DNA of 64,000 bases from Sphingobacterium sp. BN32. GTDB lineage: Bacteria > Bacteroidota > Bacteroidia > Sphingobacteriales > Sphingobacteriaceae. The notes under the pieces are model-generated. The model ran no database searches. It was given only the letters and a program-made list of their open reading frames with translations, and was not told the origin of the DNA. The DNA lies in contig NZ_CP129963.1 of the NCBI RefSeq assembly GCF_030503615.1, positions 496,001 to 560,000 on the forward strand. Reading direction: 5' to 3'. This document shows positions 24,754 through 54,270 of the stretch, piece after piece. Both the position numbers and the translations under genes were made by a program. Each line of letters opens with the position of its first letter. Position 1 is the first letter of the stretch.

Positions 24754-24901
24754 TCAGAGTTTTATTATTTTCGGTCAAATTGTTATTAAAAACGAAAAAA
24801 TAATACCTCTTTAGCACTAATCTACCGATTTTTGTGAAGATTTGCTAATTTTTGTGTTCGTGAATCAAACCGCCTTTATCAATTGTTTGCAAGAAAGAAC
24901 A

Positions 24902-25768
24902 TTGAAATACGTTAGAGCAACATATCATTTTTTCGTCCATAGCAACCTTCTGATTGCCCTTGCTGCGGTGGCTCAATGCGCGCTAACCTATTACGTGCTG
25001 GACTTCGATATTAATCCGGCTATTCTATGGATTGAAGGCTCGACGACGCTCTTGCTATACAATCTCAGTTTATATCTTTCGAAACCGTCCAATCCCCAAC
25101 AATCGCCATACTTAAGAACCCGTTGGGTTTTTAAATATGAATGGTTATTGTGGTTAAATAGTGTACTGGCAGTTCTGTTGCTTATTTACGCGCTTTTACA
25201 AATCCATCCCTATACCTTTTTTTATCTAGCCTTTGTCGGCTTAGTCAGTATGGCCTATGCAGTTCCTTTTGTTCGGATCAATGGGCAACGTCGGGGACTG
25301 CGATCAGTGCCCGGGCTTAAGCTCTTCTATATTGCGCTGGTATGGTCGCTCAGTAGTGTTGGTTTGCCTGTGCTGGAGCTTTACGTAGAAGGAGCGACGA
25401 TTGATTGGTTTACAGCGAATTATCTGGGATTGGTCAAGATTGTCTTTCTTCTGATCTGCACCCTTCCTTTTGACATTCGCGACATGGAGCAGGATAGCTA
25501 CTATAAACTCAAAACAGTGCCTACCATGCTCGGCGAGCCAGCGGCCATCAATCTTGCCTATATTCTTGGTATTGCCCATTTACTTCTTATCGCTTTCTCC
25601 CCCTACAGTATTCCGGTAAAAGCGGGGATGTTACTAACTACGCTGCTGATATTGCTGTTGATGAAATCGGTTGTTTTTACCAGAAAACGAAATTATCACA
25701 CCGTCTATTTATTGGATTTAGCACTTATTGTGCAGTGGTTTTTGGTGTTTTTGTTTCGCTTAGCCTAG
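24902..25768 (+). CDS. UbiA-like membrane protein, probably with a half-lost active site
   Basis: This is a polytopic membrane protein of 288 residues with about eight helices, resembling the UbiA prenyltransferase superfamily. The second Asp-rich motif is intact, DIRDMEQD starting at residue 191, followed by KLKTVPTMLG, as in true family members. The first motif, normally NDxxDxxxD, is replaced by NLSLYLSK and has no Asp. Catalysis of the usual Mg-dependent kind is therefore doubtful. There is no ATG start. The frame is open from a TTG at 24842 (308 residues) with a GTG at 24860. I prefer the TTG at 24902 (KYVRATYHFFVHSN) because it begins just before the first helix, as in relatives. Confidence 0.65.
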   Translation: MKYVRATYHFFVHSNLLIALAAVAQCALTYYVLDFDINPAILWIEGSTTLLLYNLSLYLSKPSNPQQSPYLRTRWVFKYEWLLWLNSVLAVLLLIYALLQIHPYTFFYLAFVGLVSMAYAVPFVRINGQRRGLRSVPGLKLFYIALVWSLSSVGLPVLELYVEGATIDWFTANYLGLVKIVFLLICTLPFDIRDMEQDSYYKLKTVPTMLGEPAAINLAYILGIAHLLLIAFSPYSIPVKAGMLLTTLLILLLMKSVVFTRKRNYHTVYLLDLALIVQWFLVFLFRLA

Positions 25769-25960
25769 CGTATCCATTGTAATAATTGTTTGAACTTCTC
25801 CGAATTTTTGTAATACAAAAATATTTTCCCTTATTTTGTTAAATAATTATTAATAATATCCTAGAATACGTCTATCGTTTTAGCGAATCACTTATTAATG
25901 CGGATCTGTATCAGTTTCTAAAGCTGATATAAGCTATGTTTAGTGATTTTTTTATGAATT

Positions 25961-26518
25961 ATGATTGAGATTGACTTATGGAATTTACTGCAGGAGGGAG
26001 ATGAAGAAGCTTTCGCGCAAGTGTATCAACAGCATGTTGATGCATTATATTCTTATGGTCTCAACTTAGGATACAGTCCGGATGACGTTCAGGATAGTAT
26101 TCACGATTTATTTGTTAATATATATAATAAACGTGGTCGATACACAGCCGTAAAAAATGTCAAGGTTTATCTGTTCATAGCTTTAAAAAATACCTTATTG
26201 AATCGCAGTTCCAAAATGGCGACGGTTTCTCTAAACCCGGAGGAGCATGATAGCGGTGAAGCAAGCGTTGAAGATTATTGGATCGCATCGGAAGCGGAAG
26301 GCGACTCGCGTGAACTGCTGAAACGTGGTATTGCGCAATTGAGCAGACGTCAGAAACAGGTGTTATATTTTCGATATTATAAAACCATGAGTTTTAAAGA
26401 AATTGCTGAACATCTGCACATCAACCCACAGTCTGCAAAGAACCTTGCCCAGTCTGCGGTCAAGAAATTAAGAGCATTTCTGATGATGATTTTGATTTTA
26501 GCCTTCCTCATTGCCTAA
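25961..26518 (+). CDS. ECF sigma-70 factor
   Basis: This 185-residue extracytoplasmic-function sigma factor has region 2 with DDVQDSIHDLFVNIYNKRGRY and region 4 with LSRRQKQVLYFRYYKTMSF leading into the helix-turn-helix EIAEHLHINPQSAKNLAQSAVKKLR. The last 13 residues (FLMMILILAFLIA) form an unusually hydrophobic tail. The gene is followed after 200 bp by fecR and then susC with an STN domain. In this arrangement substrate binding at the receptor releases the sigma factor from FecR to transcribe the transport operon. The locus has no cytoplasmic regulator other than this pair. Confidence 0.93.
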   Translation: MIEIDLWNLLQEGDEEAFAQVYQQHVDALYSYGLNLGYSPDDVQDSIHDLFVNIYNKRGRYTAVKNVKVYLFIALKNTLLNRSSKMATVSLNPEEHDSGEASVEDYWIASEAEGDSRELLKRGIAQLSRRQKQVLYFRYYKTMSFKEIAEHLHINPQSAKNLAQSAVKKLRAFLMMILILAFLIA

Positions 26519-26718
26519 TATTTTCTGAAACAGTCTGTTTTCAAAGGGCATCAAGTACTTTTCTTTAATGCTGTTCCAAGGGAAATATGATTTTTTTCTT
26601 CCTCTAAGTGCCTATCAACGCTGTTTTTAGAAAAAAGATAAAAAAATAACTTTTTTCATGAGTACCTTTTTGCAATTCTCATGTCCTTCCTATACCAGGC
26701 CGTAATGACCTTCTATTT

Positions 26719-27867
26719 ATGAACGTTAATAACTATAATAACCATACTACTGAAGCTGATTTGCTTCGCGACGATTTCTTTATCAGGTCGATGCTCGCAC
26801 CGACGGAAGAAACAGAGCGCTTTTGGCAACAGGTATTATTGGTAAATAATCTATCTGAAGAAGTTTTTGAGGGGGCAAAGCAAAAGCTATTGCAACCTGC
26901 CCATAGCATGAATCAGCATGCGAAGGATGCGCTATTTTCTCAGATCACGGAATCTACGCATACGCGCGTTCGTAAAATTTCCTACTATCGTTATGCTGCT
27001 GCAGCAATCCTCCTAGTACTCGGTATTTCATTTGCTCTTTTTCGGTATCAATCGAACGAAGTGCCTGTAAAGGAACTTGCAGAGAAGAGCCAAGCTGATA
27101 CAAGCGGTATCCTATTGGTTACAGGAGATGGGGAAACCGTCAATATTGAGGGGAAAGAAGCAGTGTTAGATTTCTCTAATGCCAATGCGGTAACCGTTAA
27201 TAAAAAGAAACTTGAGGTTGCGAGAATAAGTCAGGCTGTTCAACATGAAGTGCGTGTGCCGGTTGGCAAGCGTATATCGTTAATCCTTTCCGATGGGACC
27301 AAGATGTGGGTGAATGCAGGATCCATTGTTAAATTCCCAAGTCATTTTGATAAGAAGCAACGCGAGGTTTCAGTTGATGGGGAAGTATATGCGGATGTGG
27401 TGAAAAACCCGAAAAAACCTTTTGTATTCCATACGAAAGAATTCAATGTACAGGTATTGGGAACAAGTTTAAATATCCACGCCTATTCCGATGACCCGAA
27501 TCAGCAGGTAACCTTAGTAGAAGGAAAGGTAAAAGTAAAGAGCTCACAAGGGGAGCATTTCTTGAAACCGGATGAGTCGTATTTCGCGGATGGTAAAACG
27601 GAAGAGGTACGCGAGGTTGACGTGACATTCTTTACCTCCTGGAAAGATGGCTTTTATCGTTTCAAAGATCAGCAGTTAAAGGATGTGATCCAAAATTTAG
27701 AACGCTACTACGGTACCGATATCGAATGCTCACCGAAGATTGCTAAAATGACCTGTTCGGGATATCTGGATCTGAAAGATGATATCAATATGGTTTTGCG
27801 TGGGGTAGCCTTTTCGATGGATATCAAATTTAAAAAAGAAGAATCATCATATAAATTATACCAATAA
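26719..27867 (+). CDS. FecR-family anti-sigma factor
   Basis: The protein has 382 residues. A cytoplasmic N-terminal part (about 1-90) binds the sigma factor. One membrane helix lies near residues 93-111 (YAAAAILLVLGISFALF). The periplasmic FecR domain follows, with VRVPVGKRISLILSDGTKMW and DVVKNPKKPFVFHTKEFNVQVLGTSLNI. A C-terminal DUF4974-type domain (FYRFKDQQLKDVIQNLERYY) probably touches the STN domain of the SusC partner. The gene lies between the sigma factor and susC. The 123 bp to susC holds a likely antisense sRNA. Confidence 0.93.
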   Translation: MNVNNYNNHTTEADLLRDDFFIRSMLAPTEETERFWQQVLLVNNLSEEVFEGAKQKLLQPAHSMNQHAKDALFSQITESTHTRVRKISYYRYAAAAILLVLGISFALFRYQSNEVPVKELAEKSQADTSGILLVTGDGETVNIEGKEAVLDFSNANAVTVNKKKLEVARISQAVQHEVRVPVGKRISLILSDGTKMWVNAGSIVKFPSHFDKKQREVSVDGEVYADVVKNPKKPFVFHTKEFNVQVLGTSLNIHAYSDDPNQQVTLVEGKVKVKSSQGEHFLKPDESYFADGKTEEVREVDVTFFTSWKDGFYRFKDQQLKDVIQNLERYYGTDIECSPKIAKMTCSGYLDLKDDINMVLRGVAFSMDIKFKKEESSYKLYQ

Positions 27868-27906
27868 GCCTATGAATAGATAGTGAAATCTGATACTTAA
27901 TTAACC

Positions 27907-27978
27907 AAAAAAAAGGCAATACATAAAATGTATTGCCCCCAAAATGCGTTTGCCGCGCATCTTATTTAAATAACTCTG
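27907..27978 (-). ncRNA. candidate DonS-like antisense sRNA in the susC leader
   Basis: On the minus strand a perfect 10 bp stem GGCAATACAT/ATGTATTGCC (27915-27937) is followed by eight T residues (27907-27914), a textbook terminator pointing against the operon. Upstream on that strand lie a second small hairpin ATGCG/CGCAT (27944-27960) and a perfect -7 box TAAATTTG at 27991-27984. These predict a transcript of about 72 nt from near 27978. Antisense sRNAs of this size and place (DonS family) repress ECF/FecR-controlled PULs in Bacteroides. The exact start is inferred and no -33 box is clear. Confidence 0.6.
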
Positions 27979-27983
27979 ATTAA

Positions 27984-27991
27984 CAAATTTA
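27984..27991 (-). promoter_or_regulatory. -7 box TAAATTTG of the candidate antisense sRNA
   Basis: A perfect TANNTTTG on the minus strand, overlapping the first base of the susC start codon at 27991. It is placed to drive the short transcript ending at the terminator at 27907-27937. Confidence 0.45.
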
Positions 27992-30900
27992 TGAAAGAAT
28001 TTGAAAAGCTTCGCATTTCTCGATCAAAACAGTATTGCAGAAGCCTAGTATTAAGTTCGCTGCTTTTATTTTACGCAACGAACGAAACATTTGCCTCTCA
28101 ATTCGACAAGATTGATGCAGCCACGCCGAGAATTACCGTTCATATTGGTAACACCACTCTGGTAGAGGCATTTAAGAAACTTGAAAACCATGGTGTTTTA
28201 GTTTTTTATTCTAATAATATTGATAAACCGAACAAATCGGTGAACGTTCATGCCGACAATAAAACACTAAATGAAGTGTTTGATAATTTGTTGGCCGGGA
28301 CGAACAATACCTATTCTGTTGAAGGACGCCAGGTCTTTGTCAAGCGCAAAGGGGCTGCTGCTACCGGGCTCAGGCAAGGCAACGAAACGGCAAAACAAGA
28401 GCTAGAGGCTTCCGGACGTGTGTTCTCGGAGGACGGTAAACCTATTGGTGGTGCTTCGGTAACCGTAGTAGGGACCATGACTTCGGCAGCGACCGACGAC
28501 AGTGGACATTTTAAAATTAAAGTTCCTAATGGCAAGGCAAAGCTTTCCATTAGTTATGTTGGCTATGAAACGCAACAAGTAAATGCCGGTCTCGACATCC
28601 GTGTTAGCTTAACGAAAAAAGAGGATGTGATCGAAGAAGTGGTGGTGACGGGTGTGACGAAGATGGATAGACGTTTATTCACAGGTGCCGCTACGAAGCT
28701 GAACGCTGAAGACATGAAGATCGACGGTATGCCCGAGATCAGCCGTTCGCTAGAAGGCCGTGTTGCCGGGGTTTCTGTACAGAACGTTTCGGGAACATTT
28801 GGTACAGCGCCAAAGATTCGTGTTCGTGGTGCTACTTCCATTTATGGTAGCTCTAAACCTTTATGGGTTGTGGACGGGGTAATCATGGAAGATGTAACAG
28901 AGGTGAGCGCGGACGATCTATCGTCTGGAGATGCGGTTACTCTGATCAGTTCGGCGGTTGCTGGACTGAATGCGGATGACATCGAGAGTTTCCAAATTCT
29001 AAAGGATGGATCAGCAACGTCGATTTATGGTGCTCGTGCTATGGCGGGGGTAATCGTTGTAACAACCAAACGTGGTAAAGCCGGCGTTAGCCGTTTAAGC
29101 TATACTGGTGAGTACACCAACCGTCAGATTCCTAGCTATGGGGAATTCAATATCATGAACTCGCAAGAGCAAATGGGCGTGTACAAGGAGATGGAAAGCA
29201 AAGGTTGGTTGAACTTCGGTGAAACGTACCGTGCACAGAACTCCGGTGTATATGGTCATATGTATAAATTACTGAATACCTACGACGTAAGGACTGGGAT
29301 GTTCGGCTTAGCAAACACAGAAGAGCAAAAGCTTGCTTATTTACGTGCTGCTGAAATGCGCAATACGGACTGGTTTGATGTGTTGTTCAACAACAACTTA
29401 ATGCAAAACCATTCCTTGAGTATGACAAACGGTACGGAAAAGTCTACTTACTATGCTTCTATTTCTGCGATGACCGATCCAGGATGGACCAAGCAAAGTA
29501 AGACCAACCGCTATACGGCAAACTTGAACATGAGTTATAAGATATTGCCAGATTTGACATTGAATTTAATTTCCAATGCGTCTACACGTCAGCAAAAAGC
29601 ACCAGGTACTTTAAGTCAAGAGACCGACCCGGTATTTGGTGAGGTGAAGCGTAATTTTGATATCAACCCTTACAATTACGCAATGAATACATCGCGCGCA
29701 TTGGAGGAAAATACATTCTATACGCGTAACTACGCGCCATTTAACATTCTTCATGAATTAGAGAACAACTACATTGATATCAATGTAACGGGTTTGAAAT
29801 TCCAGGGAGAGGTGAAATGGAGAGCGATGCCTGGTTTAGAATTTACGGCTTTAGGTGCGTTCAAATATGAGAACAGTTCCCAACAGCACAATATATTGGA
29901 CGATGCTAACCAAGCTTTAGCGTACCGCGCAATGGGCGACGCAACGATTCGTGATCAGAATAGCTTCTTATATACTGATCCGAATAATCCATACGCACTA
30001 CCTATTTCGGTTCTTCCTGAAGGAGGTATCTATCGCCGTACGGATTATGGCATGTCGGGGCAGGATTTCCGTGTTTCCGGAGCTTACTCGAAAACTATTG
30101 CTGATAAGCACATCATCAATATGAACGTGGGCGGGGAGTACAACTCTTACGATAGAGATCGCTCTTTGTTTACGGGTTGGGGTATGCAGTATGCCCTAGG
30201 TGAAATTCCATTCTACGTTTATGAGTTCTTTAAACAAGGGATTGAAGCCGGTACTGACTATTATGCTTTGAACCATACGAGATCACGTAAGGTAGGTTTC
30301 TACGCAAACCCAACGTACTCTTATAAGCATAAATATATTCTGACCGGTACGGTTCGTTATGACGGTAGTAACCGTTTAGGATCTGCTAACTCAGCGAGAT
30401 GGCTACCAACCTGGAATATTGGCGCTTCATGGAATGCGCATGAGGAAGATTTCTTTACGCGCTTGTTCGTACCAACATTTTCACATTTTACCCTTCGTAC
30501 ATCCTACAGTTTAACGGGGGAGAGCGGTGTTGACTTCGTGAACAATGCGAACATGATCATCAACAGTTTCAACCCATGGCGTCCATTCTCGGATATGAAA
30601 GAAAGTGGTCTGAAGATCACCGAATTCCCGAATGATAACTTGACCTATGAGAAGAAGCATGAGTTGAATATCGGTGCTGACTTAGGGTTTCTTGACAACC
30701 GCATCAACTTTGTGGTGGATGCCTATACGCGTAATAACTTTGACTTGATTGGCCCGATCTACACCGATGGTGTTGCTGGTAAATCGTTGAAGTGGGGTAA
30801 CGTAGCGGCGATGAAGTCCAAAGGTATCGAGTTCACCCTATCCACACGCAACATTGTTCGTGAGGACTTCAACTGGGCATCTAGCTTTACGATGGCTTGG

Positions 30901-31656
30901 AACGAGACCAATATTACTCGTTTAGATGCGACATCGCGTGTGGTAGACTTAGTTAAAGGTACGGGATATGTGCAAGAAGGATATCCGGTTAGAGCGATTT
31001 TCTCTATTCCATTCGTAGGATTGGACAGAGAGGGTTTGCCGGTGTACATCAATCAAGATGGAATAGAAACCTCTTATGACATCGACTTCCAAGAGAATGC
31101 GCCGAATAAGATGAGTTTCTTGAAATACGAAGGTTCAGCCGATCCAAATACGATGGGTTCTTTTGGTAATATCTTCACATATAAAAATTTCCGCTTAAAT
31201 GTGTTTATGACTTACTCGTTTGGAAATGTGATTCGTTTGGATCAGGTTTTCAGAAACAAGTATGACGATATGCGTGCGATGCCACGTGAGTTTGCGAACC
31301 GTTGGACTTTACCTGGCGATGAGGCCTATACAACCATTCCGGCTTTGGTTAACCGTCGTGATTCAGACGATAACCCAGATATGAAGATCGCTTATAATGC
31401 CTACAACTTCTCAACGGAGCGTATTGCTGACGGTGGTTTCATTCGTATGAAAGAGATTTCTCTAGGCTATGATTTCCCTAAAGACTGGCTTGGTCCGCGT
31501 ATGAACAACCTTTCTGTTAAGTTACAAGCGACCAACCCATTCTTAATCTACGCAGATAAGAAGTTAAATGGTCAGGATCCAGAGTTCTTCCGTTCAGGCG
31601 GTGTTGCAGCTCCGGTACCAAGACAATACACTTTCACGGTGAGAGTTGGAATATAA
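27991..31656 (+). CDS. SusC/RagA TonB-dependent receptor with STN signalling domain
   Basis: This 1221-residue outer-membrane importer powered by TonB has, after a signal sequence, an STN (secretin/TonB short N-terminal) domain at about residues 48-110 (ITVHIGNTTLVEAFKKLENH). That domain talks to FecR. A carboxypeptidase-regulatory-like Ig domain follows at about 140-215 (ASGRVFSEDGKPIGGASVTV). The plug contains the SusC signature LWVVDGVIMEDV and DIESFQILKDGSATSIYGA. A 22-strand barrel ends with QYTFTVRVGI. It works with the SusD lipoprotein encoded 18 bp downstream. Imported substrates are usually glycans or peptides. The lack of glycoside hydrolases here and the metallohydrolase downstream favour a protein- or peptide-like substrate, which is inference. 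Confidence 0.95.
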   Translation: MKEFEKLRISRSKQYCRSLVLSSLLLFYATNETFASQFDKIDAATPRITVHIGNTTLVEAFKKLENHGVLVFYSNNIDKPNKSVNVHADNKTLNEVFDNLLAGTNNTYSVEGRQVFVKRKGAAATGLRQGNETAKQELEASGRVFSEDGKPIGGASVTVVGTMTSAATDDSGHFKIKVPNGKAKLSISYVGYETQQVNAGLDIRVSLTKKEDVIEEVVVTGVTKMDRRLFTGAATKLNAEDMKIDGMPEISRSLEGRVAGVSVQNVSGTFGTAPKIRVRGATSIYGSSKPLWVVDGVIMEDVTEVSADDLSSGDAVTLISSAVAGLNADDIESFQILKDGSATSIYGARAMAGVIVVTTKRGKAGVSRLSYTGEYTNRQIPSYGEFNIMNSQEQMGVYKEMESKGWLNFGETYRAQNSGVYGHMYKLLNTYDVRTGMFGLANTEEQKLAYLRAAEMRNTDWFDVLFNNNLMQNHSLSMTNGTEKSTYYASISAMTDPGWTKQSKTNRYTANLNMSYKILPDLTLNLISNASTRQQKAPGTLSQETDPVFGEVKRNFDINPYNYAMNTSRALEENTFYTRNYAPFNILHELENNYIDINVTGLKFQGEVKWRAMPGLEFTALGAFKYENSSQQHNILDDANQALAYRAMGDATIRDQNSFLYTDPNNPYALPISVLPEGGIYRRTDYGMSGQDFRVSGAYSKTIADKHIINMNVGGEYNSYDRDRSLFTGWGMQYALGEIPFYVYEFFKQGIEAGTDYYALNHTRSRKVGFYANPTYSYKHKYILTGTVRYDGSNRLGSANSARWLPTWNIGASWNAHEEDFFTRLFVPTFSHFTLRTSYSLTGESGVDFVNNANMIINSFNPWRPFSDMKESGLKITEFPNDNLTYEKKHELNIGADLGFLDNRINFVVDAYTRNNFDLIGPIYTDGVAGKSLKWGNVAAMKSKGIEFTLSTRNIVREDFNWASSFTMAWNETNITRLDATSRVVDLVKGTGYVQEGYPVRAIFSIPFVGLDREGLPVYINQDGIETSYDIDFQENAPNKMSFLKYEGSADPNTMGSFGNIFTYKNFRLNVFMTYSFGNVIRLDQVFRNKYDDMRAMPREFANRWTLPGDEAYTTIPALVNRRDSDDNPDMKIAYNAYNFSTERIADGGFIRMKEISLGYDFPKDWLGPRMNNLSVKLQATNPFLIYADKKLNGQDPEFFRSGGVAAPVPRQYTFTVRVGI

Positions 31657-31674
31657 TCTATAATTGAATATCAA

Positions 31675-33222
31675 ATGAAAAGAATATATAAATTATTATT
31701 AGTCTCTGTTTCTACTGTAGCATTCTTAGGTTCTTGTGATAAAACCTTAGATACACCTCCGGATTCAAGAACAGAGCTGGATACGCCCGAAAAGATTCAG
31801 AAATTACTGGTCTCTGCCTATCCCGCGGCGTCCACGTATTGGATGAACGAGATGTCTTCGGATAATGCGGATTATAACGGCGACGTATGGTTAGCTTACG
31901 ACCGCTTTCATGGACAGTCTTTCTTTTGGCAAGATATTACCGAAGCCTCCAATGATAATACCTATGAGATTTGGAGCAAACACTACGGCGCTATTGGTAC
32001 GGCCAATGCGGTATTAGAGGCGATCGAGAAGCTTGGAAATCCTAGTAACCTAGATGCGGCTCGAGGCGAAGCATTAATCTGTAGAGCCTACAGTCATTTT
32101 GTGTTAGTTAACACATTCTCGCATGCTTACAATAAAACGACGAGTCAAACGGATTTAGGGATCCCATATTCGGATAAGATCGAGAAGGAACTGATTACAG
32201 AACATGATCGTAGTACTGTTGCGAGAACTTACGAGTTGATTCAACAGGATATCGAAAAAGGACTGCCTTTAATCAGTGATTCGTACTATACACAACCAAA
32301 GTTCCACTTTAACATCAAAGCAGCACATGCTTTTGCTGCGCGCTTCTATTTGTATCATAGAGAATATGACAAGGCGATCGCTGCGGCGACAAAAGCTATT
32401 GGCACAGCCGGGAATGCAGATTTAAGAGATTGGAATGCGTTGCAGAAACTGAGCAACAATAATTTTATAAAACCCAATGCTTACATCAGTAAAGACGAAA
32501 AAGCAAATTACTTATTGATGGACGCGGTTTCAAGCTGGCCATATTGCCATGGTCCTTACCGAGGTGGCGGTCGTTACTCATTCAGTAAGTACATCTCTGA
32601 TAATGAGGCGAGCACTTCAAATGGGCCTTGGGGCGATTATGCATTGTTGAACTTTAGAGCATTAAACTACGACGCGAATGCGAAGAAGATGGTGGCTTAT
32701 AAAATCGCCGGCTACTTCGAGTATACCGATGTCATCAACAAGATTGGTTATGTGCATTCTGTACAGGCAATTTTTACAGCTGATGAAACGCTTTTGACGC
32801 GTGCAGAAGCTTATGCATTGAAGGGTGATGTGGATAATGCGGCAAAAGATATGTTGACATTTCTAGGGAATTATTCGGTAAAGCGTAATATCACGAAGCA
32901 GAGCATCCTAGATTTCTACAAAAACATTGATTATTACAAGTATGATGTTCCTACGCCTAAGAAAGCCTTCAATATTGACTTTTCTTTATCTCAAGATCAA
33001 GAGAACATGATTCACGCAATTTTACATAGCCGTCGCGTTCTAACGATGCACGAGGGGCAGCGTTGGAATGATATCAAGCGTTATGGTATCGTCATTTATA
33101 GACGCTTAGTCCAAAATAATGAGGTAGGCTTGCTGGATGAATTGAAACCAAATGACCCTCGTCGTGCTTACCAATTACCGAAAGAGATTTTAGGTGCTGG
33201 ATTACCAGGAAACCCAAGATAA
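31675..33222 (+). CDS. SusD/RagB-family surface lipoprotein
   Basis: This 515-residue lipoprotein has a type II signal peptide with lipobox LGSC (Cys near residue 21) and forms the lid of the SusC channel. The alpha-helical TPR-like SusD fold is recognisable from ARGEALICRAYSHFVLVNTF, FNIKAAHAFAARFYLYHREYDKA and RAEAYALKGDVDNA. It sits 18 bp after susC; the metallohydrolase gene follows within 5 bp. The substrate cannot be predicted. Confidence 0.93.
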   Translation: MKRIYKLLLVSVSTVAFLGSCDKTLDTPPDSRTELDTPEKIQKLLVSAYPAASTYWMNEMSSDNADYNGDVWLAYDRFHGQSFFWQDITEASNDNTYEIWSKHYGAIGTANAVLEAIEKLGNPSNLDAARGEALICRAYSHFVLVNTFSHAYNKTTSQTDLGIPYSDKIEKELITEHDRSTVARTYELIQQDIEKGLPLISDSYYTQPKFHFNIKAAHAFAARFYLYHREYDKAIAAATKAIGTAGNADLRDWNALQKLSNNNFIKPNAYISKDEKANYLLMDAVSSWPYCHGPYRGGGRYSFSKYISDNEASTSNGPWGDYALLNFRALNYDANAKKMVAYKIAGYFEYTDVINKIGYVHSVQAIFTADETLLTRAEAYALKGDVDNAAKDMLTFLGNYSVKRNITKQSILDFYKNIDYYKYDVPTPKKAFNIDFSLSQDQENMIHAILHSRRVLTMHEGQRWNDIKRYGIVIYRRLVQNNEVGLLDELKPNDPRRAYQLPKEILGAGLPGNPR

Positions 33223-33226
33223 TATT

Positions 33227-34111
33227 ATGAAAATGAAGAAATTAAATATACTCTATTTTATTGCTGTACTGGCAGTTCTTGTAACTTCATGTCGAAAGGA
33301 TGACCCTGTTGACAAAGATAACTCGATCTTCCAGCCTGCAGACCCGGCCACCGTTACGGAGTTCGATAACTGGCTAATCAAGAATATCGCCTATCCATAT
33401 AACATCGATATTCTATATAAATATAACGATATCAATACCGATCCTCGTTTTATCCTGGTCCCTGCAGATGTTAAGAAGTCGCAATTAGCGATTCAAGTAT
33501 TGAAGTACGCTTGGTTGGAAGCATACGACGAGGTCTTAGGTGTGGATTTCACCAGACAATATGCTCCTAAGCAATTTATGTTCGTAGGGTCTTCAGCGAT
33601 TGAAAGCGATAATACGAAAGTAATGGCTACCGCAGAGGGAGGGGTTAAGATTACTATGTACGAGGTGAATACCCTGGAATTGGACGCCGCTAAATTGAAT
33701 GACGGATATTTCCATATCATCCACCACGAGTTTAGCCACATTTTACACCAAACGAAAAACTACAGCACAGACTACCAAAAGATTTCGGAATCTGATTATA
33801 TCAAAGATGATTGGTGGTTGACTTCGGATGCTGACGCGAGAAAGAAAGGTTTTGTTTCTGCCTATTCGATGGTGGAGCCGAACGAGGATTTTGCGGAGGT
33901 GTATTCGATTTTTATCACTTCGACAGACGCGCAATGGAAATCAATCATCGCACAAGCAGGAACAGAGGGTGCGGAAAAAATCAATAAGAAGCTGAATATC
34001 ATTCGTGAATATGCGAAGAACTCTTGGGAATTTGATCTTGATGAATTACGCTCCGTAGTACTTCGTCGTTCGGAACGTGTTCCGGGTTTATCGTTTGTTG
34101 ACTTTAATTAA
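33227..34111 (+). CDS. substrate import-associated zinc metallohydrolase lipoprotein (HExxH)
   Basis: This 294-residue lipoprotein has lipobox VTSC (Cys about residue 22). It carries a gluzincin/metzincin-type HHEFSHILH motif with the zinc ligands His167 and His171 and the catalytic Glu168. It fits the family found only beside SusC/SusD pairs (LP_HExxH_w_tonB, overlapping the Peptidase_Mx1 family). A hydrolytic role on the cell surface or in the periplasm, preparing or trimming the imported substrate, is inferred. I start at the ATG at 33227, which gives MKMKKLNILYFIAVLAVL, a proper lipoprotein signal. An upstream TTG in the same frame would overlap susD. It lies 8 bp before the DUF4302 gene. 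Confidence 0.87.
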   Translation: MKMKKLNILYFIAVLAVLVTSCRKDDPVDKDNSIFQPADPATVTEFDNWLIKNIAYPYNIDILYKYNDINTDPRFILVPADVKKSQLAIQVLKYAWLEAYDEVLGVDFTRQYAPKQFMFVGSSAIESDNTKVMATAEGGVKITMYEVNTLELDAAKLNDGYFHIIHHEFSHILHQTKNYSTDYQKISESDYIKDDWWLTSDADARKKGFVSAYSMVEPNEDFAEVYSIFITSTDAQWKSIIAQAGTEGAEKINKKLNIIREYAKNSWEFDLDELRSVVLRRSERVPGLSFVDFN

Positions 34112-34119
34112 TTGAGAAA

Positions 34120-35427
34120 ATGAAAAACATAAATAAGATATTTCTTGCTTGTGCGCTTGCATTGACCTTTAGTAGCTGTAGCCGTTTCGAAGATCCTATC
34201 TTCGATGATTCCTCAGCACAAAGAATGAACGAAGCGTTCGCCGAGTATGATAAGACACTTCAGAGTGCACCATACGGTTGGAGTTTGGATTATTACTACG
34301 GTGATTCTAAGAACCCGCTTGGCGGTTATAAGATGCTTGCAAAGTTTAAGGAAGGTAAAGTGGAATTAGCGTCTGAGCTGACTACAAATAAAGTGAACGC
34401 GGGGACTTCCCAAACTTCGACTTACAGCTTTGTTTCTGACAATGGTCCAGTTTTGAGTTTTGATAGTTATAATCCTATTCTTCATTATTATTCAGAGGCG
34501 TCGCCATCCTCTCCAGATGGATTGGGTGGAGATTATGAATTTATTATGGAGTCCGTAACGGCGGAAAAAATTGTTATGCGCGGCAAGAAATTCGGCAACA
34601 CAATCGTTATGCGTCCGCTTAATGAGGAGAAGGACTTCGTAGCGTATGTGAATGAAATTAAAGAATTGAAAAATATCTTCAGTAAACTGATGCGTTTTGA
34701 TGTTCAAACTGCTGCTGGAACTACTGGTGGAGCCATTAACTTGGATCAAAGTAAATGGTACAACACTGAGAATCCGGAGAAAGTAACATATTATGCAGTT
34801 TCTGACGAAGGTATTGATTTGCAATTCCCCGTGACTCTAGATGGTAAAGAATACGATAGCTTTATCTTCAATAAGGATACAAAAACCTTTCATGCTAGAG
34901 GAAATACCGCTATTACGATTAAAAGCGTCCGCTTGGAATATGCAGATATTCCAGGAAGTTACAAGTTATCTTATATCAGTAATCGTGGTTCAAAGAACGA
35001 GATTGTTACTATAAAAGCTAAAGAAGAAGGTAAGTCCTATACATTGACCTCTGAGACGTTTATTCTCCCTATTCAGTTAGATTATGAAAATGGGAACTTA
35101 ATTTTCAAGCCACAAAATTTAGGTAGAACGCCTGACGGTTCTTCTGGCAACTTGTGGTTGACAGTGGGTTACGAAACGAATCTATTAGGCTATATCAGCC
35201 AAACTTACCAAAATACGCCAGAGCACATTATGGGAGGTTTATGGATGCAGGGCACGCGTGAGAAACCATCATTAACGGTTATGTCACAATACACAAAGCC
35301 AGGCATTTTTGGAGCATCGCCAATGAAATTTTTAGGCTTACATAAGATCGTTGGAACCACAAAAACATTTTACGATAATAAGGATGGGGTAAACTTCCTT
35401 TACAATATTAAACTCGTTAAGCAATAA
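34120..35427 (+). CDS. DUF4302 lipoprotein
   Basis: The product is 435 residues with lipobox FSSC (Cys about residue 20). The DUF4302 hallmarks are visible: SAPYGWSLDYYYGDSK near residue 52, GGYKMLAKFKEGKVELASEL, DNGPVLSFDSYNPILHYYSE, and GLGGDYEFIMESVTAEKIVM. The family is of unknown function and typically sits next to SusD and the HExxH lipoprotein. It is probably exposed on the surface as a substrate-binding component; that is inference. Confidence 0.82.
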   Translation: MKNINKIFLACALALTFSSCSRFEDPIFDDSSAQRMNEAFAEYDKTLQSAPYGWSLDYYYGDSKNPLGGYKMLAKFKEGKVELASELTTNKVNAGTSQTSTYSFVSDNGPVLSFDSYNPILHYYSEASPSSPDGLGGDYEFIMESVTAEKIVMRGKKFGNTIVMRPLNEEKDFVAYVNEIKELKNIFSKLMRFDVQTAAGTTGGAINLDQSKWYNTENPEKVTYYAVSDEGIDLQFPVTLDGKEYDSFIFNKDTKTFHARGNTAITIKSVRLEYADIPGSYKLSYISNRGSKNEIVTIKAKEEGKSYTLTSETFILPIQLDYENGNLIFKPQNLGRTPDGSSGNLWLTVGYETNLLGYISQTYQNTPEHIMGGLWMQGTREKPSLTVMSQYTKPGIFGASPMKFLGLHKIVGTTKTFYDNKDGVNFLYNIKLVKQ

Positions 35428-35432
35428 GAATA

Positions 35433-36584
35433 ATGACGATGAGAAATTTATTAAAATATATTTTCCTTTTAGGAGTCATGGCTACGGTCATGGTATCCTG
35501 TAAGAAGGATAATTCTGCGCCTGAATTGTCTGTTGTTGAGACAAAATTAGGAACTGGCCCCCTAGAAAATAAAGGGACCATCCAGCTAAGTTCAGCAGAT
35601 TACACCGCAACTGTCGAAGATGCATGGTGTAAAATTGAGCAAGATGGAAATATCATTCACATCACAGTTGAACAGAACGATGATAAGACGAATCGCTCAA
35701 CGCTGATCCACATCACATCGGGTGATGGCAAAATGCTAGTTGTTCCGATTACGCAGAGAGGGCTATTGTTTGATATAAACTCGCCCATTAAAGATTTGAA
35801 TTATTCATTCAAAGGAGGAGTTAAGAAGATCAATATCATCAGTAACGTGGACTACAAGGTGGAATTTGATCAGGATTGGTTGAGCTATAAAGTAGAAGGC
35901 GATACACTCTATATCACTGCGGATAGCTATCAGCCTGCTGACAAAAACACGAAGCGAACAGCGAAAGCGACAATCATCTACGGGACTGATGAGGCGGTTT
36001 TAGATTTGACACAGCTGAATATTTTGTCTTACGAAGAATTCCTGGGGCCTGGCCGCTTATCATTTATTGATAACGCTACGGTCAATGAAACTTATCGTAA
36101 AACACTGTCAGTAAATATTGTAGAGAAAGTAAATGGTTCTGTGTTTACTGTAGTGACCGGGCCAATAGCAACACTTAGCAACAGATCCATCAAAATCGAC
36201 GTCACGTATAACCCGGATGGGTCTATTCAGATTAATTCAGGACAATTGCTGTTTGAAGACTACTATGATGAAAGATCGACAGAGATTAACACGAACAAAT
36301 TAGTTCGAGTTTATGGTATGATGTACAATATCGCTGCTAAGACCTATAGCTCTAATTTCGATCCTTTGTTGAAGGCAATAGCTGAATCTTCAACGACGGG
36401 TATGGTTTATAGATTTAATGCGTTTAATAAATGGAACAATGGTTCTCCGCTTGAGATTTTATACAGAGAATACGCTGCAGACGGTATGGCGTTTCCTGCT
36501 TATAAGTTGAATACAACAACAATCAGTAGGTTTACCAACATCCCTCCATATGTTTATATGCTTGGGATGCGTTTAGAAAAGTAA
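35433..36584 (+). CDS. BACON-type domain surface lipoprotein
   Basis: This 383-residue lipoprotein has lipobox VMVSC (Cys near residue 23) and two N-terminal Ig-like domains of BACON type. The first reaches to about residue 112 and ends HITSGDGKMLVVPITQRG. The second reaches to about 200 (YKVEFDQDWLSYKVEGDTLYI, ending EAVLDLTQLN). BACON domains bind glycans or mucin-like ligands in other Bacteroidota. The remaining ~180 residues are beta-rich and unrecognised. It is the last gene of the locus, 5 bp after DUF4302 and before a strong terminator. Start at 35433 (MTMRN) or the second ATG at 35439. Confidence 0.7.
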   Translation: MTMRNLLKYIFLLGVMATVMVSCKKDNSAPELSVVETKLGTGPLENKGTIQLSSADYTATVEDAWCKIEQDGNIIHITVEQNDDKTNRSTLIHITSGDGKMLVVPITQRGLLFDINSPIKDLNYSFKGGVKKINIISNVDYKVEFDQDWLSYKVEGDTLYITADSYQPADKNTKRTAKATIIYGTDEAVLDLTQLNILSYEEFLGPGRLSFIDNATVNETYRKTLSVNIVEKVNGSVFTVVTGPIATLSNRSIKIDVTYNPDGSIQINSGQLLFEDYYDERSTEINTNKLVRVYGMMYNIAAKTYSSNFDPLLKAIAESSTTGMVYRFNAFNKWNNGSPLEILYREYAADGMAFPAYKLNTTTISRFTNIPPYVYMLGMRLEK

Positions 36585-44559: not shown

Positions 44560-46656
44560 ATGAACAAATTTACTAGCCTGTTTGCGGTCGCAACTGCACT
44601 CCTACTAGGTAATCAATGCATCGCCCAATCTCGTGTAGTACAATCTTTTAACGACGATTGGAAGTTCTATAAAGCAAATAACTCCACATTCTTTACCGAT
44701 TTTGAGAATGGTCAGAAATACTTCGAAAGTCAAAGTCAATGGACGAAGCTTGAGGTGTGGGAAGATGTGACACTCCCACATACCTACAACCGTACGGATA
44801 TGCAAACCGACCGTAACTTCTTCGAAGGCAAAGCGGTCTATACCAAAACCTTCTCCGTAGATGCTGCCTCGAAAGATAAACGCACATTCATTAAGTTCGA
44901 AGGCGTAGGCGCAATTGCTAAGTTATACATCAATGATAATTTTATCGGCGAGCATAAAGGTGGTTACAGCATGTTCACTTACGAGATTACAAATTCAGTG
45001 AACTACGATAAACCTAATACCATCACGGTCATTGCCGATAATGCTTCTCGTAAAGATATCATTCCCATAAACCAGTTCTTATTTCCGGTATATGGTGGAA
45101 TTTACAGACCTGTCCACTTGATTACAACCAACAAAACCAGCTTTGTTGTAACCGATCGTGCTGCCCCGGGAATACAGATTCGCCAGCAGAACGTATCTGC
45201 GAAGAATGCTGATATTGAGGTTTCTGCAAAATTGGAAACCAAGGAAAAGACGGCACAAGCGGCAGAGCTATGGGTGGAGATTAGAGATTATGATGGCAAG
45301 CTTGTACAAACTGAGAAGCAACCCGTAAAGATTAGTCCTCAGGGAGTAACCTATGTGAAGCAAGCGGTAAAGATGAAATCACCACGCCTTTGGGACGGTA
45401 TCCGCGATCCTTATCTGTATTCCGTAACGGCAAAAATTATGTCGGGTGGCAAAGAACTGGATGCGGTAAAACAACCCTTAGGAGTTCGTAAAGTAGAGAT
45501 CAATGGAGGTCAGAATGTGTTGTTGAACGGAAAGCCTTATCCGATGTATGGTGTTTGTAGACATCAGGATCGTGAAGGTTTCGGATCAGCATTGAGTTTT
45601 GCACAACATAAAGAGGACATGTTGATGATTAAAGAAATGGGCGCCACGACGATTCGCTTAGCACATTATCAACAATCGCCGGAAATCTATTCTCTTGCTG
45701 ACACATTAGGTTTCCTCACATGGGCAGAAATCCCATTCGTTAATCGTGTGTCTTACTATGAAAATGACAATGCGAAACAACAGATGACGGAGCTTGTGAA
45801 GCAGAATATGAATCACCCCTCTATTTATATCTGGGGAGTTCACAATGAAGTTTATTCTAAAACAGCAGACGAACAAGTTCCGGTGCTTTCGCGCGAACTC
45901 AATGATATCGCGAAGACCTTAGACCCTGATCGTTATACAGTAGCCGTTACAGGATACAATGTTGTTGACCGACAAGAAAATTTAACTACGGATGTTCAAG
46001 GGATCAACCATTATTTCGGTTGGTACGGTGGCAAGATCGAAGATCTTGGTCCATGGGCTAAAAAAGTACAACAAGACTTCCCGGGATACAAAATCATGCT
46101 TTCCGAATACGGAGCAGACGGTAATATGGATATCGGTCAGGAGGAATTGAAGATGCCGGATAACGTAGTTTCGGGGAAGTCATTCCCGGAAAACTATCAG
46201 ACTGAGACGCATATTCAGCAATGGGCCGCTATTCAGCAGAATCCTATAATCGTGGCCTCTTATGTTTGGAATATGTTCGAATTTGCGGTACCTGCATGGA
46301 ATCGCGGAGGCGTGAATGCTCGAAACCTGAAAGGGTTAGTGAGCTTCGACCGCAAGCGCAAGAAAGATTCCTTCTACTGGTATAAAGCGAATTGGAATCC
46401 AGAGCCGATGATCTACCTAGCGAACAGAAGAGATAATGAGCGGACGAAGGCACAAGGCAAAGTACAGGTGTTCTCCAATCTAAAAGATGTGAAACTAGAA
46501 GTCAATGGTAAGAGCTATACAGCTAAACAGGGCGTAAATGATAAGCACTGGGTTGTTGAACAGGTCGATCTGAAGCAAGGTCAAAACACGATCGTTGCTG
46601 TTGGAAAAGATGGTTCAAAGGAACTCAGAGATGAGATGGTTTGGAACTTAAAATAA
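44560..46656 (+). CDS. GH2 family beta-galactosidase-like glycoside hydrolase
   Basis: This 698-residue periplasmic enzyme has a signal peptide ending near residue 23 (NQCIAQ). The GH2 N-terminal jelly-roll covers about 28-185 (TLPHTYNRTD, FEGVGAIAKLYINDNFIGEH), followed by an Ig-like domain. The TIM barrel starts near GKPYPMYGVCRHQDREGFG. The acid/base is Glu430 in GVHNEV and the likely nucleophile Glu516 in LSEYGADG. A C-terminal Ig-like part resembles DUF4982. Beta-galactosidase is the likeliest activity given the fucosidase beside it, but beta-glucuronidase or beta-mannosidase cannot be excluded. It starts the plus-strand half of the PUL; the fucosidase gene begins 8 bp later. Confidence 0.88.
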   Translation: MNKFTSLFAVATALLLGNQCIAQSRVVQSFNDDWKFYKANNSTFFTDFENGQKYFESQSQWTKLEVWEDVTLPHTYNRTDMQTDRNFFEGKAVYTKTFSVDAASKDKRTFIKFEGVGAIAKLYINDNFIGEHKGGYSMFTYEITNSVNYDKPNTITVIADNASRKDIIPINQFLFPVYGGIYRPVHLITTNKTSFVVTDRAAPGIQIRQQNVSAKNADIEVSAKLETKEKTAQAAELWVEIRDYDGKLVQTEKQPVKISPQGVTYVKQAVKMKSPRLWDGIRDPYLYSVTAKIMSGGKELDAVKQPLGVRKVEINGGQNVLLNGKPYPMYGVCRHQDREGFGSALSFAQHKEDMLMIKEMGATTIRLAHYQQSPEIYSLADTLGFLTWAEIPFVNRVSYYENDNAKQQMTELVKQNMNHPSIYIWGVHNEVYSKTADEQVPVLSRELNDIAKTLDPDRYTVAVTGYNVVDRQENLTTDVQGINHYFGWYGGKIEDLGPWAKKVQQDFPGYKIMLSEYGADGNMDIGQEELKMPDNVVSGKSFPENYQTETHIQQWAAIQQNPIIVASYVWNMFEFAVPAWNRGGVNARNLKGLVSFDRKRKKDSFYWYKANWNPEPMIYLANRRDNERTKAQGKVQVFSNLKDVKLEVNGKSYTAKQGVNDKHWVVEQVDLKQGQNTIVAVGKDGSKELRDEMVWNLK

Positions 46657-46664
46657 ACGAAGGA

Positions 46665-48167
46665 ATGAACGTACTAAAATATTCAATGCTAACCCTTTTA
46701 GGAATGGGCTTAGCGTCGGGACAAGTGTCAGCGCAATGGACGGGGCCAAAGCAGAAACCTGCAGAACGTAAAGAAGTGAAATTCGGGCCGATTACTCCAA
46801 AGAATCGAACCGATGCAAATATGGAAGCCTTCCGTAATTATGGCTTAGGACAATTTATTCACTGGGGATTGTATGCTATTCCTGGTAATGAGTGGGAGGG
46901 AGTTTCTGCGCGCAAAGGAGCGGCAGCATCCGAGTGGATTCGCACATGGTCTGGTCCTAACGCGCCGAAAAATTGGAAAGAAACTTATGACAACCTTTAC
47001 AAGCAGTTCGATCCAAAATCTTTCGATGCCAAAGCTTGGGCAAAACAGGCTAAAGATATGGGTGCGAAGTATATGATTTTCACCACGAAGCACCATGACG
47101 GATTTGCATTATGGCCGACACAGTATTCGGAATATGATGTTATGGCGTCGCCTTATAAAAAGGATATTGTAAAGGAAGTTGTCGATGCTTACACCGCGGA
47201 AGGTATTGATGTTTATCTATACTTCTCCGTTTTGGAATGGAATAATCCGGATTACCTGACGAAGGCACCGGTAACTGCCGAAGAAAAAGCGAAGTACAAT
47301 AAGTTCTTGCAGTACACGAAGAACCAATTAATGGAATTATTGACCAATTATCCACAGATTAAGGGCTTTTGGTTCGACGGTACTTGGGATCAATCCTGGG
47401 TACAGTCCTATGAGTTCACCTATAATCTGGAGAAAGAGCTAAGAGAAAAACATCCAGGATTAATCATCGGCTCTCGTTTTCGCAATGATGAATTCGGAAA
47501 ACGCCATTTTGATAGCAACGGTGATATCTTAGGCGATTACGAGCAAGGATGGGAGCGGAAGCTACCTCAGGCCTACGAATGGCTTGATGGCAACGACTGG
47601 GATGCGGTTATGACGATTCCTCCAAATGGTTGGGGCTATATGAAAGACTGGTCTGGATTATATACCAAAACAACAGACGATCTATTGGATATGTTAATGC
47701 AGTCCGTTTCGCTGAATGGAAACTTTGTATTGAACTTTGGACCTGATGGCCAAGGAAAGATGCATCCAGGAGAAGATAAGATTGCAAAAGAATTAGGCGC
47801 ATGGATGAAAGTCAATGGCGAGGCTGTACATGGCGCGCGTCATGCTGACCTTCCAGTCTCGAAGTTAGGATACTATACAGCAAAGGGAAATACACTTTAT
47901 CTATCCGTATTTAACCGCCCAGTCAATAATATCGCACGCATCGCTGTACCAAAGAACAGCAAACGCGTTCCTATATCTGCTCAGATTTTAGGAAATAAAG
48001 CGCAGTTGAAAGTCGTACATTCGGACATAGGCTTGGACTTGGATAAGAATACCTACTATGATGTAATAATTCCTAAAGGGTATAAAAGCGACAGAGCTTT
48101 TGTGATCAAAATGGAATTGGGCGAGCCAAGCAAAGCTACAGACAAGCTGATGGATGCTAAAATGTAA
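46665..48167 (+). CDS. GH29 family alpha-L-fucosidase
   Basis: This 500-residue retaining exo-fucosidase has a signal peptide ending near residue 24 (GQVSAQ). The GH29 barrel shows GLGQFIHWGLYAIPGNEWEG, TTKHHDGFALWPTQYS with the substrate-binding His pair, and FWFDGTWDQSW with the nucleophile Asp238. It should remove terminal alpha-fucose in the periplasm after import by the adjacent SusC/SusD pair. The linkage preference is not readable. The frame extends upstream into GH2, but the ATG at 46665 gives the signal peptide MNVLKYSMLTLLGMG. Confidence 0.92.
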   Translation: MNVLKYSMLTLLGMGLASGQVSAQWTGPKQKPAERKEVKFGPITPKNRTDANMEAFRNYGLGQFIHWGLYAIPGNEWEGVSARKGAAASEWIRTWSGPNAPKNWKETYDNLYKQFDPKSFDAKAWAKQAKDMGAKYMIFTTKHHDGFALWPTQYSEYDVMASPYKKDIVKEVVDAYTAEGIDVYLYFSVLEWNNPDYLTKAPVTAEEKAKYNKFLQYTKNQLMELLTNYPQIKGFWFDGTWDQSWVQSYEFTYNLEKELREKHPGLIIGSRFRNDEFGKRHFDSNGDILGDYEQGWERKLPQAYEWLDGNDWDAVMTIPPNGWGYMKDWSGLYTKTTDDLLDMLMQSVSLNGNFVLNFGPDGQGKMHPGEDKIAKELGAWMKVNGEAVHGARHADLPVSKLGYYTAKGNTLYLSVFNRPVNNIARIAVPKNSKRVPISAQILGNKAQLKVVHSDIGLDLDKNTYYDVIIPKGYKSDRAFVIKMELGEPSKATDKLMDAKM

Positions 48168-53905: not shown

Positions 53906-54203
53906 GATTCGATGTTTTAAAAGTTATGATAGTTGTACCTATTGGTTATCGATGCGAATGTGACGAAAAAAGAGTCAGGTTGCATCTGAAAATGCAATGC
54001 AATCGTTTGAGCAATCTACGAAAACGATGTAAATTTATATACTGGGGATAATCTGTAAAAAAACTATCGGTTGAAAATTGTAACTAATAAAATGTGGGAT
54101 AGAAAGGAAAGATTTTCCACAAATATTCTTCTACAAAGTAGCTTTTTATGTGTTATGTTGCTGATTTTTAGCGAAATAAAAAATACCTCGAGTATGGTTT
54201 GAT
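53906..54203. other. non-coding leader and regulatory region of susC
   Basis: No gene is seen. The region holds the 33 bp operator-like element (53996-54028) and a susC 5' leader of up to about 90 nt. Beyond it is an AT-rich stretch to the ilvE terminator. Confidence 0.5.
53996..54028 (-). promoter_or_regulatory. 33 bp operator-like element before susC
   Basis: The reverse strand reads CGTTTTCGTAGATTG then CAAACGATTG, matching the element at 44475-44507 in 27 of 33 positions, including 12 consecutive identical bases (TTTCGTAGATTG). It lies 91-123 bp upstream of the susC start. Confidence 0.6.
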
Positions 54204-54248
54204 GAAAATAACAAAGGGGCTTTTTTGTTAAAAAAGCCCCTTTGTTAA
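54204..54248 (-). terminator. intrinsic terminator of ilvE
   Basis: A perfect 17 bp inverted repeat (AACAAAGGGGCTTTTTT and its complement, 54210-54246) around a 3 nt loop lies 23 bp past the ilvE stop. A- and T-runs inside the stem allow termination in both directions. Confidence 0.85.
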
Positions 54249-54270
54249 AATTCTTTATGACTATGGTAAA

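Follow-up and report, generated by a model that had tools for sequence, protein, structure and literature searches.

The 123-bp gap between fecR and susC in an operon of Sphingobacterium sp. BN32 carries, on the minus strand, a candidate DonS-type cis-antisense RNA, which we consider likely to repress its own ECF/FecR-controlled susCD operon. Positions are those of the window, meaning here the whole 64,000-nucleotide stretch that was analysed. The same layout recurs at other FecR loci of this genome and of its relatives, and is probably a widespread off-switch of the kind known from gut Bacteroides.

In the proposed mechanism, a housekeeping-type promoter with its -7 box over the susC start codon would give rise to a 74-nt noncoding minus-strand RNA, and antisense transcription would stop at an intrinsic terminator within the gap. 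As long as the ECF sigma factor, which presumably drives susC, is held by FecR, this RNA and the polymerase firing from the susC start would damp leaky susC expression. Pairing of the RNA with the susC leader would either hinder translation or expose the leader to decay, with transcription interference possibly adding to the repression, and on release of the sigma factor sense transcription would override the antisense RNA. We infer that the element is transcribed and at which step it would act; the repression itself is carried over from Bacteroides.

The fecR-susC gap and the predicted RNA

The last base of the FecR frame is 27867 and the first of SusC is 27991. The features of the region are as follows.

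25961..26518, plus strand: ECF sigma factor gene (Sigma70_r2, r4; Pfam, with the NCBIfam TIGR02937 superfamily model above cut-off)
26719..27867, plus strand: fecR anti-sigma factor gene (FecR, FecR_C; Pfam)
27907..27980, minus strand: predicted antisense sRNA of ~74 nt, complementary to the susC leader (sequence, fold, family comparison)
27907..27939, minus strand: intrinsic terminator, with a perfect 10-bp stem (12 counting G-U pairs) and an eight-T run
27937-27928 and 27924-27915, minus strand: terminator stem arms GGCAATACAT and ATGTATTGCC, around a 3-nt loop (27927-27925) and followed by the eight T (27914-27907)
~27964-27940, minus strand: 5' (second) hairpin of the predicted sRNA (fold; kept in the ortholog of genome G122)
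27985..27992, minus strand: sigma-A type -7 box TAAATTTG (sequence; fixed register across loci)
27991..28008, plus strand: first six susC codons, overlapping the antisense promoter (DNA identical in the 87% ortholog)
27991..31656, plus strand: susC, the presumed target (Pfam; TIGR04056)
31675..36584, plus strand: susD, Peptidase_Mx1 lipoprotein, DUF4302 and BACON genes, 3' of susC (Pfam; TIGR04549)

A sequence-only reading of this DNA had described a wrong-way terminator in the gap, a second hairpin upstream of it on the minus strand and a -7 box overlapping the susC start codon. All three are there: the stem and its eight T can be read directly from the sequence, the second hairpin also appears in the computed fold, and the box at 27992-27985 has its first two bases in common with the susC ATG. 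Since a -7 box is placed at -12 to -5 relative to the start site in the accessible text of PMC9723704, the RNA is predicted to start at ~27980 and to be ~74 nt long, where the earlier reading gave ~72 nt. From 27980 to 27907 it is predicted to form two hairpins at -22.4 kcal/mol (z = -4.06, with 0 of 200 shuffles as good), and over its whole length its sequence is the complement of the susC leader, between ~11 and 84 nt before the ATG. No Rfam 15 family reached its gathering score in the window, and the weak matches seen fell far short of it.

Between 24000 and 34000 the terminator at 27907-27939 heads a list of 7 terminator-like sites, where shuffled sequence gives 8.3 +/- 2.8; the number of sites is thus ordinary, and it is the strength and the place of the gap terminator that are unusual. 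This chance-level count favours a chance reading, in which an unexpressed, A/T-rich gap would have acquired its terminator-like hairpin and its A/T-rich -7 word by accident, as does the frequency of the TAAATTTG word, which occurs 320 times in the genome, no more often than its reversed control word (also 320). Alone, the word is worthless as evidence, and its weight comes from its fixed register across loci. Against chance stands the recurrence of the layout in paralogs and orthologs of the gap, set beside matched controls and described below, on account of which a chance origin is very improbable indeed and was set aside.

The domains encoded in the operon are ECF sigma, FecR, SusC, SusD, Peptidase_Mx1, DUF4302 and BACON (Pfam), and NCBIfam places a zinc metallohydrolase lipoprotein (TIGR04549) in this neighbourhood. 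The locus had been read as one without glycoside hydrolases, and a Pfam scan agrees, with none among 8 proteins at 24842-36581, an absence that does not show what this SusCD pair imports. A GH2-type glycoside hydrolase gene adjoining an alpha-L-fucosidase gene is found at 44560-48167, ~8 kb past the studied operon, with opposite-strand genes in between.

Recurrence at FecR gaps and in relatives

The genome has 25 FecR_C matches, of which 4 inside SusC frames were dropped. The remaining 21 genes fall into 13 with a long gap (at least 95 bp from the FecR gene to the next large ORF) and 8 with a short one. With a terminator score cut-off of 9.5, a minus-strand terminator is present in 9 of the 13 long gaps and in none of the 8 short ones (Fisher p 0.002; this and the other p-values are indicative only, as the loci are related and the cut-off was chosen after the own-genome gaps had been viewed), and a plus-strand terminator in 0 of 21. 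Four of the 13 long gaps (L014, L015, L017 and L020) lie below the cut-off.

Two sets of controls were drawn from the same genome. Among 24 FecR-free susC leaders (the best 30 of 72 SusC signature matches, minus 6 that are FecR-linked), one has a minus-strand terminator. The 43 co-directional control gaps of 95-400 bp, taken from 400 kb with simple ORF calls, gave 6 minus-strand matches, and every one of these hairpins can also be read as a plus-strand terminator, five above the cut-off and one below. It is this recurrence at paralogous and orthologous gaps against matched controls that argues against chance.

Two FecR-free leaders deserve a separate word. The lone positive among these 24 (L312, also L337; G000:C1:952995, within 950000-955000) has both the terminator and a box in register. 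The minus-strand genes before it resemble, as we take it, a small toxin-antitoxin pair. In the window itself, the leader of a second, FecR-free susC (53906-54270) contains a strong hairpin that scores as a terminator in the direction of susC, with none on the opposite strand.

Among the matches listed, FecR loci were collected from the genus (7 genomes) and from other genera of the family (9 genomes), one part of the set being the loci given plus 20 further rows of a longer list; matches inside SusC frames were set aside, along with a small number of weak matches. Together with the own genome this gave 133 loci, one of which (L080) has no next ORF. A minus-strand terminator is found in 63 of 95 long gaps, against a plus-strand one in 3 of 95 (Fisher p 2e-22), and in 2 of 37 short gaps, all among the matches listed; 32 of these 95 long gaps miss the cut-off. 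The pattern extends to other families of the class, for which 70 loci (30 given, 40 fetched as stretches) were used out of a longer list; 3 of them have no ORF following, and the others give 43 long gaps and 24 short ones. In this set the minus-strand terminator occurs in 26 of 43 long gaps and 2 of 24 short ones, the plus-strand terminator in 0 of 43 long gaps, and 5 of the 7 families that have long gaps show positives. When named genomes were probed with FecR, 7 distant Bacteroidales loci were obtained, 4 of which have the minus-strand terminator (L035, L038, L039 and L040, all Tannerellaceae); it is absent from Bacteroides timonensis (L036, 142-bp gap), Prevotella (L037) and Tannerella (L041, 23-bp gap).

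With FecR as an ortholog probe at E <= 1e-60, the only match in 99 genomes was the own genome. A SusC probe found the closest relative in G122, at 87% identity. Its gap is of equal length, and terminator, second hairpin and -7 box are all kept; the part that holds the RNA and its promoter is little altered, and the FecR side of the gap differs. Loss of hairpin and box in orthologous gaps was one of the two outcomes that the sequence-only reading named as refuting it, and both are conserved here. Window and G122 agree letter for letter in susC codons 1 to 6, silent sites included, against only 7 of the next 34 codons. The RNA predicted for G122 also folds well (z -3.01, with 1 of 200 shuffles as good).

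This ortholog also bears on whether the minus-strand element might encode a small peptide instead of a regulatory RNA. A 19-codon frame does run through the hairpins from an ATG at ~27962, and in G122 it ends after 7 codons. The RNA is probably noncoding because this frame is lost, and a peptide, which we find scarcely credible, was set aside.

More widely in the genus, 52 SusC leaders were taken from ~130 places with SusC matches, picked for matches reaching near the N-terminus. Some of them recur in the FecR set: L023 and L174 both denote the window, and L062 and L205 stand for a single locus. Conservation among these 52 of ~130 places is of two grades: the terminator is there in 46, and an exact box in register is there in 22 of these and lacking in 30 of the 52. 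In ten distinct hairpin cores drawn from these SusC relatives every cell is paired (90 of 90), and G-C, A-U and G-U are all seen at one position; covariation in the core is modest, with a two-sided change in 1 of 9 pairs.

The eight further terminator-positive loci of the genome were read downstream for their target genes. Among 28 proteins scanned with Pfam (SusC and many distant genes excluded), none belongs to a glycoside hydrolase family; the neighbours include a sulfatase, an Exo_endo_phos protein, an FAD oxidoreductase, an aspartyl protease and thioredoxin-like proteins. The layout thus seems not to be confined to classic glycan loci, since no glycoside hydrolase is among the proteins scanned at the nine loci. 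One neighbourhood (L332, G000:C1:140571-155600) is a paralog of the window operon, with SusC, SusD, Peptidase_Mx1 and DUF4302, and comes with a FecR and a candidate antisense element belonging to it.

Strand of selection and the predicted antisense promoter

Every inverted repeat folds on the sense strand too, and the hairpin could in principle be a leader element of susC (an attenuator, a stabiliser or a protein site) whose minus-strand appearance is incidental; one gap, L055, scores above the terminator cut-off whichever strand is read. The two strands can be told apart by their wobble pairs, and stems were searched in a strand-neutral way, with G·U and A·C scored alike. Read on the minus strand, the stems of 68 gaps contain 68 G·U and 3 A·C (p 5e-17), and without the T-tail requirement 68 G·U and 5 A·C in 71 gaps. 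Ordinary gaps of the own genome served as the positive control: their plus-strand terminators, read on that strand, have 16 G·U and 0 A·C. Selection acts on the minus-strand RNA, because G·U far exceeds A·C there and selection on the sense strand would give the reverse. The excess of T-tailed hairpins on the minus strand (63 of 95 against 3 of 95, among the matches listed) and the fixed register of the minus-strand -7 boxes also speak against a sense-leader element, which is highly improbable and was set aside as largely refuted by the wobble count. The count of G·U against A·C in stems is a test for the strand of selection that can be used for other candidate antisense RNAs.

The promoter shows a corresponding regularity. 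Among the matches listed, 43 of 63 terminator gaps have minus-strand TAnnTTTG upstream of the terminator, where shuffles average 10 and never exceed 18; the plus strand has it in 1 of 63, and 20 of 63 are without the exact motif. It sits on the susC start in two registers, CAAANNTATG in 22 and CAAATGTA in 14 of the 63 terminator gaps among the matches listed, and the first of these, CAAANNTATG, is also present in 10 of the 32 long gaps without a terminator. A box at either ATG register is found in 46 of 95 long gaps and 0 of 37 short ones among the matches listed, against 1 of 298 control genes. The two registers rebuild the box and shift the ATG, which argues for selection on the box and not on translation context. 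A -33 TTTG is not general (5 of 46 at spacer 19, among the matches listed; shuffle mean 1.1, max 6), and none is seen in the window by inspection. This accords with the statement, in the available part of PMC7366714, that no -33 element is identifiable in Flavobacterium johnsoniae.

Such a promoter might also act by transcription alone, with antisense polymerase from the susC start colliding with sense polymerase, the terminator shielding fecR and the RNA a mere by-product. The overlap with the start codon fits, as antisense initiation would occupy the susC 5' end, and so does the short distance from the fecR stop to the terminator, whose median is 56 nt over 89 terminator gaps among the matches listed. 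The 5' part of the RNA and the second hairpin would not be needed for interference alone, and they are kept in G122. We regard interference as the sole mechanism as rather unlikely, though worth keeping in mind, and prefer a repressor RNA that pairs with the susC leader.

Two further motifs were seen in the gaps. Between hairpin and ATG, the plus strand has an excess of TTAACCA and AACCAAA (15 and 16 of 89 leaders, among the matches listed, against ~1 expected), so different antisense RNAs would share a G/U-rich 5' stretch, through which cross-talk between paralogs is conceivable. The sense ECF promoter was sought as k-mers common to the interval from FecR stop to hairpin; GCCTATG and TTAACC were prominent, and no common promoter could be placed there because several gaps leave 15 nt or less. 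GC[CT]TATG follows fecR in the window (27868-27883) and in 22 other gaps, 23 of 199 among the matches listed; of the 89 terminator gaps, 14 contain GCCTATG, the expectation being 0.1. A stop occurs at most 2 codons past the ATG in 17 of 23 of these motifs, against 74 of 308 other ATGs (among the matches listed). The motif may be a minimal start-stop frame or a piece of the sense ECF promoter.

Taking recurrence and promoter together, we lean towards a broader reading, in which an antisense RNA between fecR and susC would be a class-wide default layer of ECF/FecR control and not a speciality of Bacteroides, with the -7 box commonly overlying the start of susC in either of two registers and SusCD systems of many kinds served, including those without glycan enzymes. 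If this is true, the start codon of the transporter and the promoter of the repressor RNA are the same DNA, and changes near the first codons could remove the antisense promoter and leave the SusC protein unaltered. The data suggest that double control, by anti-sigma factor and antisense RNA, is common for FecR-governed SusCD transporters. One guessed RNA becomes a predicted regulon, with nine elements here and dozens in relatives, each with its target, promoter and end.

Comparison with DonS, FopS and other known systems

DonS and the DonS-like antisense RNAs of Bacteroides PULs were reportedly described by Cao and colleagues in 2016. In the accessible part of PMC7366714, DonS-like RNAs are cis-antisense, 78-128 nt long and divergent to susC homologues, and DonS represses its own PUL in B. 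fragilis, 'albeit through an unknown mechanism' (PMC11697453, as far as its text is available). The available portions of further sources report for B. theta five DonS-like RNAs visible on Northern blots (PMC11697453, PMC7366714) and first ten, later 32 in number (PMC7366714, PMC11697453, PMC10994844), a sigma-A type promoter for about half of cis-antisense RNAs in general (PMC7366714, PMC11697453, PMC10994844), and anti-correlation of some antisense/target pairs (PMC7366714, PMC10994844). A search of the literature that took in only a minority of subscription papers, and so does not prove absence, found no paper on such susC-leader RNAs in Sphingobacterium and its relatives.

The window element matches the DonS-like layout, which the earlier reading had claimed for it, in place and orientation, being antisense and divergent to a susC homologue, and nearly in size: with predicted ends, it is 74 nt long, and the 36 terminator gaps with a box in register give 74-125 nt (among the matches listed), against 78-128 nt in the accessible source. 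It has a sigma-A type promoter and an intrinsic terminator as sequence features and is tied to an ECF/anti-sigma susCD system by gene neighbourhood, and, as far as the available sources describe DonS-like RNAs, there are many copies per genome there and here. The elements differ in that those found here stand at SusCD operons without detected glycoside hydrolases, and in the place of the -7 box, which lies over the start of susC at two fixed registers, a feature that the accessible texts do not describe for DonS. In the parts of the sources available we did not find this fixed overlap, or its spread over several families, described. By place and parts, and nearly by size, the window element would work like DonS; it is likened to it by description, not by sequence.

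FopS of B. thetaiotaomicron, which comes from a study of polysaccharide use, is likewise a family of paralogous sRNAs with some antisense members; in the available text 4 of 14 are antisense and 9 of 14 intergenic (PMC11697453). FopS is thus mostly intergenic by that account, whereas each element here is bound to its own fecR-susC gap. Cis-regulatory leader RNAs share with the present elements a hairpin within the 5' leader, and they differ in the strand concerned, as both the wobble pairs and the T tails found here indicate the minus strand.
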